A DNA stretch of 22,931 bases from IMG/VR virus record IMGVR_UViG_3300025818_000210, positions 1 to 22,931 of that record; one strand, given 5' to 3'. Below are positions 12,542-16,743 of the stretch, piece by piece. Both the position numbers and the translations under genes were made by a program. Source of the DNA: a virus. Position 1 is the first letter of the stretch. Each line of letters opens with the position of its first letter. Under the pieces are notes generated by a model that saw only the letters and a list, made by a program, of their open reading frames with translations, had not been told where the DNA came from and ran no database searches.

Positions 12542-12729
12542 TTCTTACTCCCAAAAGCGTCAGCTTCCATCGGATTATCAGGCCAATCGTTATCGACCAC
12601 CTGACAGGCTTGCATCCCGTTACAGCAATCCGCTATCCCGGTGCCGTTGCATTCGGGGCAGGGCCCGTGGATTATGAATGGCTCGCGGGTCGTTTTCTCG
12701 CCGCTGCCTTGGCAAAATTCACACTTCAT
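12538..12729 (-). CDS. Small DnaJ-type zinc-finger protein (63 aa)
   Basis: Two CxxCxGxG motifs are visible, CEFCQGSG (3-10) and CPECNGTG (24-31), as in the central zinc finger of DnaJ chaperones; a further CC pair and Cys follow (DCCNGMQAC). The protein lacks a J domain, so it is a stand-alone zinc finger, a type often seen in phages. It may bind RNA, DNA or unfolded protein. The ATG has GGGAG 8 bases upstream and lies 11 bases inside the preceding gene; the stop overlaps the following gene by ATGA. Confidence 0.7.
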   Translation of the reverse strand: MKCEFCQGSGEKTTREPFIIHGPCPECNGTGIADCCNGMQACQVVDNDWPDNPMEADAFGSKK

Positions 12730-13399
12730 GGGCCAAGCTCCCGTAATGACCCTCCGAAACGCCGTGCGACGTGCGCCGATCGATCCGCGCTTGGATCTGC
12801 GCCCGGACGGCGCCGGGCACTCCGTCGTATATGAGGACGTTATCTTTGGCGCCGTAATACCCCCTCGACCACACTGATCGAAGGATGCTCAGACCCTTCG
12901 CCCCCGTCAGCGCGACGCCCCTCCCGCGAAGGATTCCGCACCAGAATTCGGCGTTTGGGCGTTGGTACACATATTCGCTGTCCGTGGCTAAATCACACCC
13001 CCACAGGCCAACGATATCGCCTGGCTTGGTGTATAATGCCGCAAAGGCGAGCATGTACGCGACGGTGCTTTCGAGATACCTACCACCCGACAAGGCGTCG
13101 ACATCCTCAAAAGGGTACGCGACGCTGTTCGGGATCTCCGGGTCTATGGCCGGCAGTAGCAAGGGCGAATTTTCTGAGGTCATCTCGTTTATGTACGAGA
13201 TGAGGGCGCCGGGGCGGTCTCCGCACGGATAGAATTTCGCGTTCTTGCGCCAATCCGCGTGAGGCTCGAAATACAGGTCTAGGTGCGGCACGGGGATCCA
13301 AGGCATGCCCCAGAAGATCCAACTCGTGTCACCGATGGGTGCCTCGGCGAGGGAGGGGCCCCCGCCGAGGATCGCTATCTTCAAAGGCTCATCTGACAT
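12719..13399 (-). CDS. Phage protein with Rossmann-like start, first gene of the accessory operon
   Basis: 226 residues from ATG 13399, which has GGGAGGTG 6 bases upstream; an 18-residue longer reading exists but lies across the TGAACCA repeats and has no ribosome-binding site. It begins LKIAILGGGPSLAEAP, a strand plus glycine loop typical of Rossmann folds. Later it carries GRYLESTVAYMLAFAALY, then GDIVGLWGCDLATDSEY and QRPNAEFWCGI. I know this arrangement (GxDxxxxxEYxxQRP) from uncharacterised phage proteins sometimes compared with glycosyltransferase or DUF115-like folds. Its substrate is not evident. The base composition is as GC-rich as the structural region, unlike the genes that follow it. 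Confidence 0.65.
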   Translation of the reverse strand: MSDEPLKIAILGGGPSLAEAPIGDTSWIFWGMPWIPVPHLDLYFEPHADWRKNAKFYPCGDRPGALISYINEMTSENSPLLLPAIDPEIPNSVAYPFEDVDALSGGRYLESTVAYMLAFAALYTKPGDIVGLWGCDLATDSEYVYQRPNAEFWCGILRGRGVALTGAKGLSILRSVWSRGYYGAKDNVLIYDGVPGAVRAQIQARIDRRTSHGVSEGHYGSLAHEV

Positions 13400-13424
13400 C
13401 GTGTTCACCTCCCGTTCTGGTCGG

Positions 13425-13464
13425 TGAACCAATATGAACCATTTTTGAACCACCCCGCACTGTC
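13425..13464. repeat. Putative integrase arm-type sites, left of attP core
   Basis: TGAACCA occurs three times, at 13425, 13435 and 13446, spaced 10 and 11 bases apart, which is about one helical turn. The last copy extends into a longer string through CCCCGCACTGTC that ends at 13464 and is repeated to the right of the core. This regular phasing next to an attachment core is what arm-binding sites of lambda-type integrases look like. The assignment rests on pattern and position only. Confidence 0.55.
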
Positions 13465-13492: not shown

Positions 13493-13538
13493 TGGTCGGA
13501 GTGAGAGGATTTGAACCTCCGGCCCCTGCCTCCCGAAG
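13493..13538 (-). other. attP core: 3' part of a tRNA-Pro(CGG) gene
   Basis: On the minus strand these 45-46 bases read from the anticodon loop (TTCGGGA, anticodon CGG) through a variable loop, a T arm with stem GGAGG and loop TTCAAAT, the 3' acceptor strand CACTCCG, discriminator A and CCA. The bases before the anticodon loop do not pair with the anticodon stem, so the 5' half is absent and this is not a functional tRNA gene. It lies 120 bases from the integrase stop. Phages that integrate into tRNA genes carry such a copy to restore the host gene, so this is the expected crossover site. Confidence 0.85.
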
Positions 13539-13630: not shown

Positions 13631-13658
13631 TGGTTCAATGAACCACCCCCGCACTGTC
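13631..13658. repeat. Putative integrase arm-type site, right of attP core
   Basis: TGGTTCA (13631-13637) and TGAACCA (13639-13645) form an inverted pair, and the second copy continues as CCCCCGCACTGTC to 13658, matching the left-side repeat with one extra C. The end of the repeat runs into the integrase stop codon (13660-13658). Placed on the other side of the tRNA-like core, it completes an attP with arms on both sides. Confidence 0.55.
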
Positions 13659-14629
13659 TATAAGTCCAACGCCGCAGCAGCGTCGGTGAGGTGCCCAGGC
13701 TGGTGGCGCGCGTATACGCGCTGCGTAACGCTGATGTCGGAGTGCCCCAGGAACGCGGAAATTTGTTCAATGGGGATCCCCCGCTCACACATCCAAACGG
13801 CCGCTGTGTGGCGCAGGTCATGAATGTGGACATCTTCCAAGCCGGCGGCTCGGGTGGCCCTTTCGAAGGCGTGGCGGATGTTCTTGATCGGCCGGCCTTC
13901 ATATTCGACCACATACTCCGACGTGGCCCGACCGCGAGCTTCTTCCAGGATCCCGCGCAGGGTATCAGACATCGGCACGGTGGCGCGCTTCTTGCCGTTG
14001 GCTTTTTGCCCCAGCCAGATCTCGTTCTTGTCAAAGCGCACCTGCATCCAAGTTAGCTGCAGAAGGGCCTCCTTCCGTCCAGCCGTGCCTATGGCGAGAT
14101 GTAAAAAGAGGAACAGATGCTCGGAGCCTGCCTCGTCGAGGAGGCGCTTGAACTCGTCCCGCGTTAGCCAACGGTCGCGGGGCTCAGGCTCGGGCAGGCA
14201 CTCGACGACGGCGGGCGTTTGGGGGTCATGCCACCGCAAAGCCGCGCGGAGAGTACGCAGTTCCTTATTGATAGTGCCGTCCGCGACGTCACGTCTGCGA
14301 TGCTCCACGTACTGGCGACAGGTCGCACGGCTCACCTGCTCCGGCTTAAAGCCAGCAAAGAAGGGCGACAGGCGCTTCCACGCGTCGCGCAAACGATAGA
14401 TATCGACGACACGGTCGGCGCGGTCTTCGAGGTACGCCTCGACGATCGGCCCGACGCGGTCTTCGACTGGGGCAACAAAGGCGTTTACAATTTCACGCGC
14501 CTTCCGTTGGGCAGCGTCACGATGTTCGTCTGTTGCGGCGAAGCCGGTAGATAGTCGCCGGCGTTTTCCTCCGGCGTTGAAGCGGGCGCACCATTGGTTT
14601 CGGTACGCGACGAGATCGAATGTGTGCAT
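13658..14629 (-). CDS. int: Tyrosine-recombinase integrase
   Basis: 323 residues. The N-terminal ~50 residues (RNQWCARFNAGGKRRRLSTG) are an arm-binding-like domain, ~55-135 a core-binding helical domain, and the rest the catalytic domain. The catalytic residues are visible: Arg185 in GTAGRKEALL, Lys in ANGKKRATVP (~213), HDLRH with His270 and Arg273, His296 in FLGHSD, and the nucleophile Tyr306 in VYARHQ. It should recombine attP with the host tRNA-Pro gene. The ATG is preceded by GGAG and lies 145 bases inside the excisionase-like gene, so int is made from the end of the leftward early operon. Confidence 0.93.
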   Translation of the reverse strand: MHTFDLVAYRNQWCARFNAGGKRRRLSTGFAATDEHRDAAQRKAREIVNAFVAPVEDRVGPIVEAYLEDRADRVVDIYRLRDAWKRLSPFFAGFKPEQVSRATCRQYVEHRRRDVADGTINKELRTLRAALRWHDPQTPAVVECLPEPEPRDRWLTRDEFKRLLDEAGSEHLFLFLHLAIGTAGRKEALLQLTWMQVRFDKNEIWLGQKANGKKRATVPMSDTLRGILEEARGRATSEYVVEYEGRPIKNIRHAFERATRAAGLEDVHIHDLRHTAAVWMCERGIPIEQISAFLGHSDISVTQRVYARHQPGHLTDAAAALDL

Positions 14630-14865
14630 TTTTCAAACTCCAATACATCTGTGTGCGGGATGCGGTAGAGGCGTCCGACCCTAAACGCTGGGAGGTCTCC
14701 ACGTTCAATCATATTACGGATCGTCTGTGGTGAACACTCCCAGCGTTCGGCCAGGGTGTGCGGCGTAAAAGGTCGGGACGGAGCGATGGGGAGGTCATCG
14801 CTCGACGGGGCACACAACCCGTCCATGTTGGAGAGAGGGAGGGGCTCTCGTTCATGACGTCCCAT
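14485..14865 (-). CDS. Excisionase-like helix-turn-helix protein
   Basis: 126 residues. Residues 33-80 (FTPHTLAERWECSPQTIRNM, then DLPAFRVGRLYRIP and a VLEFEK helix) form a MerR/AlpA-type winged helix as used by phage excisionases, which bend DNA at the attachment site. The first 30 residues and the C-terminal ~45 are low-complexity. The C-terminal third is encoded in a different frame over the start of int (145 base overlap). Start ATG 14865 is three bases after the upstream stop. An AlpA-like transcriptional regulator is the alternative, but the position before int favours Xis. Confidence 0.8.
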   Translation of the reverse strand: MGRHEREPLPLSNMDGLCAPSSDDLPIAPSRPFTPHTLAERWECSPQTIRNMIERGDLPAFRVGRLYRIPHTDVLEFEKCTHSISSRTETNGAPASTPEENAGDYLPASPQQTNIVTLPNGRRVKL

Positions 14866-16136: not shown

Positions 16137-16164
16137 TTTGCTAACTCCCTTAGCGTTGGTTGAT

Positions 16165-16178
16165 GGGGCGTGCGCCCC
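16165..16178 (-). promoter_or_regulatory. Leader hairpin of the leftward early transcript
   Basis: GGGGCG and CGCCCC, separated by two bases, form a compact GC-rich inverted repeat in the ~50 base leader between the predicted transcription start and the first gene. Its position is like that of boxB or nut elements in lambdoid leaders, but the sequence is not boxB-like and no N gene is recognised. Confidence 0.35.
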
Positions 16179-16191
16179 GTTGGCAATCACC

Positions 16192-16219
16192 ATAATAAGG
16201 AGATTTCCTACGTCGTCAA
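16192..16219 (-). promoter_or_regulatory. Leftward early promoter (PL-like) with operator
   Basis: On the minus strand TTGACG (16219-16214) and TATTAT (16197-16192) are separated by 16 bases, a good sigma-70-type promoter. The spacer contains GTAGGAAATCTCCTTA (16211-16196), nearly the same as the operator in the rightward promoter. It drives the leftward early operon ending in xis and int. Confidence 0.7.
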
Positions 16220-16239
16220 CAGAAATTTTCTTACGTTGT

Positions 16240-16273
16240 GAAAAAAGTTTCGCCGGCGTTTTACGGCCGGCGA
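16240..16273 (-). terminator. Rho-independent terminator after the repressor gene
   Basis: On the minus strand an 8-bp stem, TCGCCGGC paired with GCCGGCGA (16273-16266 and 16257-16250), with an 8-base loop is followed by AAAC and six T. It begins 5 bases after the repressor stop and would keep repressor transcripts from entering the leftward early operon. Confidence 0.8.
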
Positions 16274-16277
16274 GACT

Positions 16278-16628
16278 TTACATATCGATCGTAATCTTGA
16301 CTTGGCTTGGATCACAACCCGCCGCTTGGGCGATCCTTTCCTTACTTTGTGCGATCGTCACGGACAAAGCTTGAGGCTCAAACGCTTCTTGTAGTTTATC
16401 TAGGGACGACGCAAACGCGGCCGCCTCGTCAGGTAAAAGCTCCGACAGGCTAATCCCCAAGCGCCTCGCCAGATACCGCGCCTCTTTTATAGGTAAGCGC
16501 TGCGGCGACCCGCGGTTGATGTACTGCTGCAAGTATGCGGCGTTCTTCCCCAACGACCTAGACAGAGACGCCAAACTTTCTTTGCGATCTTTAACGACGC
16601 GCAATAACGCCGACCTTTGTGCGTCCAT
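16278..16628 (-). CDS. Phage repressor, XRE-type helix-turn-helix, without peptidase domain
   Basis: 116 residues from ATG 16628, which has GGAGGG 7 bases upstream; a longer in-frame reading starts inside the operator region. Residues ~4-65 match the N-terminal DNA-binding domain of alphaproteobacterial LexA/S24-type phage repressors (ASLSRSLGKNAAYLQQYINR, then RYLARRLGISLSELL). The usual S24 self-cleaving domain is absent; instead a ~50-residue tail (LDKLQEAFEP; SKERIAQAAGCDPSQVKITI) follows, probably for dimerisation. It lies between the two operator-bearing early promoters and is transcribed leftward, so it is the likely lysogeny repressor. Confidence 0.8.
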   Translation of the reverse strand: MDAQRSALLRVVKDRKESLASLSRSLGKNAAYLQQYINRGSPQRLPIKEARYLARRLGISLSELLPDEAAAFASSLDKLQEAFEPQALSVTIAQSKERIAQAAGCDPSQVKITIDM

Positions 16629-16647
16629 AATTGTACCCTCCAACAGA

Positions 16648-16676
16648 ATGATAACACGAGAGTAGGAAAAATCCAT
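16648..16676 (-). promoter_or_regulatory. Probable repressor-maintenance promoter with third operator-like site
   Basis: TATCAT (16653-16648) is a good -10 box; at 17 bases the -35 position is ATGGAT (16676-16671), which is poor and suggests activation is needed. GTAGGAAAAATCC (16662-16674) overlaps this region and shares the GTAGGAAA half-site of the two main operators. Expected start is about 13 bases before the repressor gene. Confidence 0.45.
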
Positions 16677-16684
16677 ATCTCTTG

Positions 16685-16713
16685 TTGACAGCGTAGGAAA
16701 ATTTCCTTAATCG
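16685..16713 (+). promoter_or_regulatory. Rightward early promoter (PR-like) with operator
   Basis: TTGACA (16685-16690) is a perfect -35. A 17-base spacer leads to TAATCG at 16708, a weak -10 (TTAATC with 16 is the alternative). The spacer holds AGGAAAATTTCCT (16695-16707), a perfect palindrome around a central A. Binding there would block RNA polymerase. It drives the Cro-like gene and the replication operon. Confidence 0.65.
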
Positions 16714-16743
16714 GAATGCACCTCAACTTTTTATAGCGGGCGC

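Follow-up and report, generated by a model that had tools for sequence, protein, structure and literature searches.

The switch region and its genes

The window, by which we mean the whole analysed stretch of 22,931 bases, belongs to a temperate phage, as it encodes an integrase and an excisionase recognised by Pfam and PHROGs and contains a probable attP core in a tRNA-Pro gene (Table 1). The repressor gene lies between the leftward (PL) and the rightward (PR) early promoter, and the gene for a Cro-like protein is the first of a rightward operon that also encodes a nuclease, a methyltransferase and a helicase. The terminator proposed to insulate the repressor gene in a preliminary description of this DNA is supported by its stem-loop, T-run and folding energy. 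Regarding PR, no convincing -10 box was found at 16-18 bp spacing from the -35 box (TAATCG or TTAATC). The Rfam search gave a single, implausible match.

Table 1. Features of the phage switch and of the neighbouring integration genes (window coordinates)
Feature	Position	Strand	Details
Probable attP core, 3' half of tRNA-Pro(CGG)	13493..13537	-	Exact copies in other genomes
Tyrosine integrase	13658..14629	-	Phage_integrase 1.6e-27
Excisionase-like HTH_17 protein	14485..14865	-	HTH_17 1.8e-10; excisionase PHROGs
First leftward gene behind PL, 118 aa	15780..16136	-	No known family (Pfam, PHROGs)
PL	16192..16219	-	-35 TTGACG (16219-16214), 16 bp, -10 TATTAT (16197-16192), OL1 between the boxes; no other sigma-70 match in the region
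OL1, GTAGGAAATCTCCTT	16197..16211	-	17.0 bits, rank 2; inside the PL spacer
OL2, GTAAGAAAATTTCTG	16220..16234	-	11.8 bits, rank 4; directly adjoins the PL -35 on its upstream side
Intrinsic terminator	16244..16273	-	Between repressor gene and PL; stem-loop 16273-16250, then T-run; -20.4 kcal/mol, z = -4.2
Repressor, 116 aa	16278..16628	-	HTH of the HTH-S24 family; ATG at 16628, GGAGG ahead
Probable repressor promoter	16648..16656	-	Extended -10 TGTTATCAT, -10 at 16653-16648; from sequence only
ORM, GTAGGAAAAATCCAT	16662..16676	+	21.1 bits, rank 1; over the repressor promoter
PR -35	16685..16690	+	Perfect TTGACA, from sequence; missed by the sigma-70 search
OR1, GTAGGAAAATTTCCT	16693..16707	+	13.9 bits, rank 3; behind the PR -35; half-site spacing N5
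Cro-like protein, 64 aa	16744..16938	+	Probable HTH fold; homologues, AlphaFold, Foldseek

The DNA-binding domain of the repressor places it in the alphaproteobacterial HTH-S24 (CI/LexA-like) family. Direct family searches gave weak matches only, and single-sequence searches recovered no relatives, either among genome contigs (repressor as query) or among viral contigs (repressor, Cro-like protein and integrase as queries); profile queries, in contrast, did recover relatives. By tblastn against plasmids, the relatives of the repressor were HTH-S24 regulators from Sphingomonas and Sphingobium; among these a Sphingomonas regulator matched best, with 54% identity over 56 residues of the HTH. Relatives were present in 28 of 385 alphaproteobacterial genomes, nearly all in frames of about 200 aa or longer, and the segment GKNxAYLQQYIxRGSP of the HTH is conserved in the family. 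Both relatives that were checked contain an S24 peptidase domain. The phage protein has no Peptidase_S24 match in the Pfam search and ends about 50 residues past the HTH. A 137-aa relative without the S24 motif, encoded on a short bacterial contig (L058 / L124), is a further case of this kind. The repressor's sequence matches in the PDB were designed repeat proteins and were disregarded, and its single-sequence AlphaFold model (pLDDT 66.6) was set aside.

The first rightward protein has no convincing match in Pfam. Its AlphaFold model (pLDDT 86.8) consists of four helices, and the best Foldseek matches, all of them weak (E > 0.1), include HipB and HTH regulators of the C.AhdI type. Its position and predicted fold make it a probable Cro-like protein. 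In a tree of Cro-like proteins the window's copy sits on a long, unplaced branch.

Predicted operator sites in the window

The motif GTAGGAAA occurs three times in the window, at 16204-16211 (-), 16662-16669 (+) and 16693-16700 (+), and all three copies fall in the two control regions flanking the repressor gene. Shuffling gave an expectation of 0.32 copies per whole window, and three copies were reached in 0 of 100 shuffles; the earlier observation of sites in both control regions is confirmed. Two post hoc tests were also made: 69 of 20,000 shuffles of the control regions held some 8-mer in at least three copies, and the test for a 9-mer family on the window alone gave 15 of 1,500. Judged from the window alone, the repetition of the motif is moderate evidence.

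The preliminary description counted three operator sites. Those three stand, but their number has to be corrected, as a fourth related site, OL2, had been overlooked. The half-sites are separated by N4 in ORM and OL1 and by N5 in OR1; the perfect 13-base palindrome pointed out earlier (AGGAAAATTTCCT, 16695-16707) is thus confirmed as a sequence, but its spacing is off the family consensus. Neighbouring operators have 23 bp (the OL pair) and 31 bp between them. Placement of sites between the -35 and -10 boxes holds for PL and is half shown for PR, where the -35 box is good but the -10 box is not. We agree that a further site lies over the probable repressor promoter, as ORM covers the spacer and the -35 position belonging to the extended -10 box.

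The predicted operator of the HTH-S24 family

The motif GTAGGAAA was first sought deliberately in promoters of chromosomal homologues of the repressor; an open ranking of 7-mers and a matrix scan came later. In the ranking, TAGGAAA came out as the top 7-mer: it was present upstream of 35 of the 51 non-redundant homologues and in 16 of 370 background windows. The samples come from related genomes and are therefore non-independent. The family operator has the consensus TAGGA-N4-TCCTA, with N4 between the half-sites in 42 of 46 chromosomal family matches (both strands counted). Of 60 genomes from one order, ten contain exact TAGGAAAWWTCCTA, and in eight of these ten it adjoins the start of an S24 gene. 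Many homologue promoters hold the block AAATCCTAC-TTGTC-TAGGAAAAATCCTA, the operator of which directly abuts the -35-like TTGTC; the corresponding gap in the window is 4 bases.

The weight matrix was built from the promoters of the chromosomal relatives alone, with the window left out. When about 45,800 positions of the window were scanned with it, the four control sites took ranks 1-4; the next best position scored 10.4 bits, and none outside the four reached 11.5 bits. Going by these promoters, the operator is common to the whole family and not private to the phage. ORM is predicted to be the strongest site for the repressor, because it has the N4 spacing whereas the palindromic OR1 has N5. 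A scan of viral contigs for a combined promoter and operator pattern gave two single-site matches, one within a thyX-like frame (L017) and one alone in a prophage (L018), which we treated as chance.

Switch layout in viral relatives

In viral contigs, a profile search recovered 159 encoded relatives of the repressor, and the best 80 loci were kept, 73 of them non-redundant. Among the relatives in these best 80 of 159, a divergent Cro-like gene was present in 45 of 73, and operators were found upstream in 52 of the 70 with enough sequence, compared with 26 of 518 background windows. Within the same selection, operators up to 350 bp past the repressor stop codon were a minority feature (11 of 46, nine of them within 100 bp), and bins further past the stop gave 2/42, 6/41, 3/40 and 2/36. 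Four relatives (L206, L257, L269 and L232) have two operators past the stop, 22-25 bp apart, as compared with 23 bp in the window. L232, with a protein of 122 aa and operators on both sides, is a second example of a viral repressor without S24.

Agrobacterium phage Atu_ph08 (L016) and the loci L032-L037 encode a homologous Cro-like protein together with another repressor. Their layout is the same but the palindrome differs (TCCTCTATAGAGGA, for example), and no family site was found in these phages. Since the Cro-sharing phages with another repressor have another palindrome in the same place, the operator goes with the repressor. The palindrome or a similar sequence lies behind the PR -35 and upstream of the Cro-like gene (2958-2979 in L016), and the repressor of these phages is short.

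In relatives of Octadecabacter DB virus 2 (L015, L019-L031), the TTGACA of the matching promoter, upstream of the Cro-like gene, is flanked by an inverted repeat, TTCGGACA / TGTCCGAA (4670-4720 in L015). No divergent repressor gene was seen at this place.

Chromosomal pairs and defence genes

The order of G015, which the plasmid relatives suggest to be Sphingomonadales, has the HTH family in 186 of 246 genomes and the Cro-like family in 301 of 396. In 43 of 55 non-redundant loci from the class and order samples, genes of the two families lie next to each other in divergent orientation. Core copies adjoin ordinary genes (cysS, aldehyde dehydrogenase, TPP enzyme), and PADLOC found no match among their neighbours. 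The pair standing by ordinary genes (e.g. L157, L160, L164) is nearly order-wide and looks like a domesticated phage switch.

Accessory copies were taken mostly from genomes with extra copies, and so the nine with an adjoining PADLOC match at E 1e-10 or better, out of 13 examined, do not represent an unbiased rate. The matches were Zorya I (L165), DrmD (L172), Pbe (L176), BREX (L177 and L188), DISARM-like genes (L187) and SNF2 helicases with partners (L173, L174 and L178). We give the SNF2 cases little weight because the helicase encoded in the window matches ZorD too. The defence genes lie downstream of the Cro-like gene and on the same strand in six of the nine loci. Seven accessory copies placed in a tree form one clade. 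A tblastn search of plasmids for the defence-type Cro-like protein found nothing.

GTTC-N7-GTTC is the LexA box of alphaproteobacteria. It was present between the two genes in all 12 accessory intergenic regions examined, and in 12 of 51 homologue upstream regions, compared with 1 of 370 background windows. The 12 accessory regions vary in their matches to the family matrix, with none at 8 bits in L180 and L188. The phage control region (16137-16743) contains no GTTC-N7-GTTC. The only two copies of GTTC-N7-GTTC / GAAC-N7-GAAC in the window, at 13403-13417 and 13436-13450, lie just upstream of a leftward gene (about 12719-13399). The one at 13403-13417 overlaps the ribosome-binding site of this gene and may be due to chance.

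A probable two-arm immunity switch and its alternatives

The attP core was found exactly in 4 of 137 sampled alphaproteobacterial genomes. In the S24-rich order it had three mismatches in all 32 matching genomes (128 searched). The host thus probably lies outside this order, which we had regarded as the likely host and dropped for this reason. A search of the same order for a 214-aa protein of the phage found nothing.

In our view the region very likely serves a temperate phage as a two-arm immunity switch of the lambda type, with one operator type at four places. The compact lambda-like switch of the preliminary description is supported by the external matrix, which ranks the four sites first, and by the viral relatives, which repeat the layout. 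The same operator type lies at PL, PR (its -10 box being uncertain) and the repressor promoter.

From the computed sites, family assignment, layout and recurrence in relatives, we infer binding, repression, autoregulation and induction as follows. The repressor would bind the four operators of the TAGGA-N4-TCCTA type. At OL1, in the spacer, and OL2, against the -35 box, it would shut the leftward operon, which runs from PL towards the excisionase and integrase genes, and at OR1, behind the PR -35, it would shut the rightward operon. Bound at ORM, the best match to the family, it would limit its own synthesis. The Cro-like protein, as the first product of PR, probably binds overlapping sites and would direct the phage to lytic growth, which is the least supported step of the model. 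Because the repressor has no S24 self-cleavage domain, we would not expect RecA-driven cleavage to induce the prophage; an antirepressor or the Cro-like protein may act instead.

It is improbable that the Cro-like protein is the main ligand of these sites and the repressor binds them weakly or binds elsewhere. Homologues of the Cro-like protein do accompany the operator both on chromosomes and in viruses, a co-occurrence that cannot separate the two proteins. However, operators are also found upstream of HTH-S24 genes with no Cro-like neighbour (e.g. L048, L049, L059), and the phages that combine a homologous Cro-like protein with another repressor have no family sites.

We find it very hard to believe that the sites are kept for a DNA-damage-cleavable HTH-S24 regulator of the host, which would silence the prophage wholly or partly. 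There is a precedent in GIL01, which is repressed by the host LexA (PMC4551915). The consensus of the phage sites is also that of the operators of chromosomal HTH-S24 proteins, and the phage repressor itself has no S24 domain. On the other hand, an HTH protein of this family is encoded by the phage itself, in the expected position, the attP core suggests that the host does not belong to the order in which chromosomal HTH-S24 genes are common, and three of the four genomes with the exact attB core had no HTH-family match in the class search. Finally, that the repeated motif arose by chance or as a by-product of AT-rich promoter sequence is scarcely credible and largely refuted, for despite the modest outcome of the window-only post hoc tests a matrix derived from other genomes selects just these four sites.

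Relation to known switches and significance

The immunity region of lambda comprises CI, Cro, OL and OR, and a lambda-type switch is as a kind already known. The two-arm switch of the window shares with lambda the leftward repressor gene between the early promoters, the Cro-like gene as the first rightward gene, and several like operators at both early promoters and the repressor promoter. It differs in its S24-less repressor, in the single operators placed in promoter spacers and in the 23 and 31 bp gaps. With the HTH-S24 regulators of alphaproteobacteria and their prophages it has in common the GKNxAYLQQYIxRGSP segment, the operator consensus and the divergent Cro-like gene, whereas its repressor stops shortly after the HTH, where these continue into a peptidase. 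Atu_ph08 likewise has a short S24-less HTH repressor, a divergent homologous Cro-like protein and a palindrome behind the PR -35, but its repressor is of the HTH_3 subfamily and its palindrome is another one.

The nearest published parallels are FddR (PMC13148647), GIL01 with the host LexA (PMC4551915) and BrxR (PMC9122601). FddR of Francisella is a chromosomal phage-type repressor that is autoregulated through a palindrome and controls a divergent gene (PMC13148647), as the chromosomal relatives described here appear to do; it differs in binding GTG-N11-CAC, in being an S24 protein and in not belonging to the phage itself (PMC13148647). BrxR proteins are WYL-domain regulators of defence islands (PMC9122601). 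Like the accessory HTH-S24/Cro-like pairs they are small regulators located by diverse anti-phage systems, but they have a WYL domain, no S24 domain and no divergent Cro-like partner (PMC9122601).

The operator gives a readable code for a large family of alphaproteobacterial repressors. In the open-access literature searched we found neither this HTH-S24 operator nor an S24-less repressor acting on it described. The presence of such a repressor in a temperate phage raises the question of how the prophage is induced. It is conceivable, although we judge it unlikely, that phage repressors and the defence-linked HTH-S24/Cro-like switches read one operator code, in which case cross-silencing would be possible either way. 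A phage with a non-cleavable repressor, resident or infecting, could then hold the BREX, Zorya, DISARM and Pbe promoters of the host silent, and, conversely, a phage entering the cell could be silenced by an S24 regulator of the host. Such cross-talk between phage immunity and host defence is only hypothetical here, since the host of this phage is probably outside the S24-rich order. The chromosomal repressor/Cro-like pair is widespread and lies partly by anti-phage systems, and at these defined sites both its control by DNA damage and its possible cross-talk with phages become approachable.
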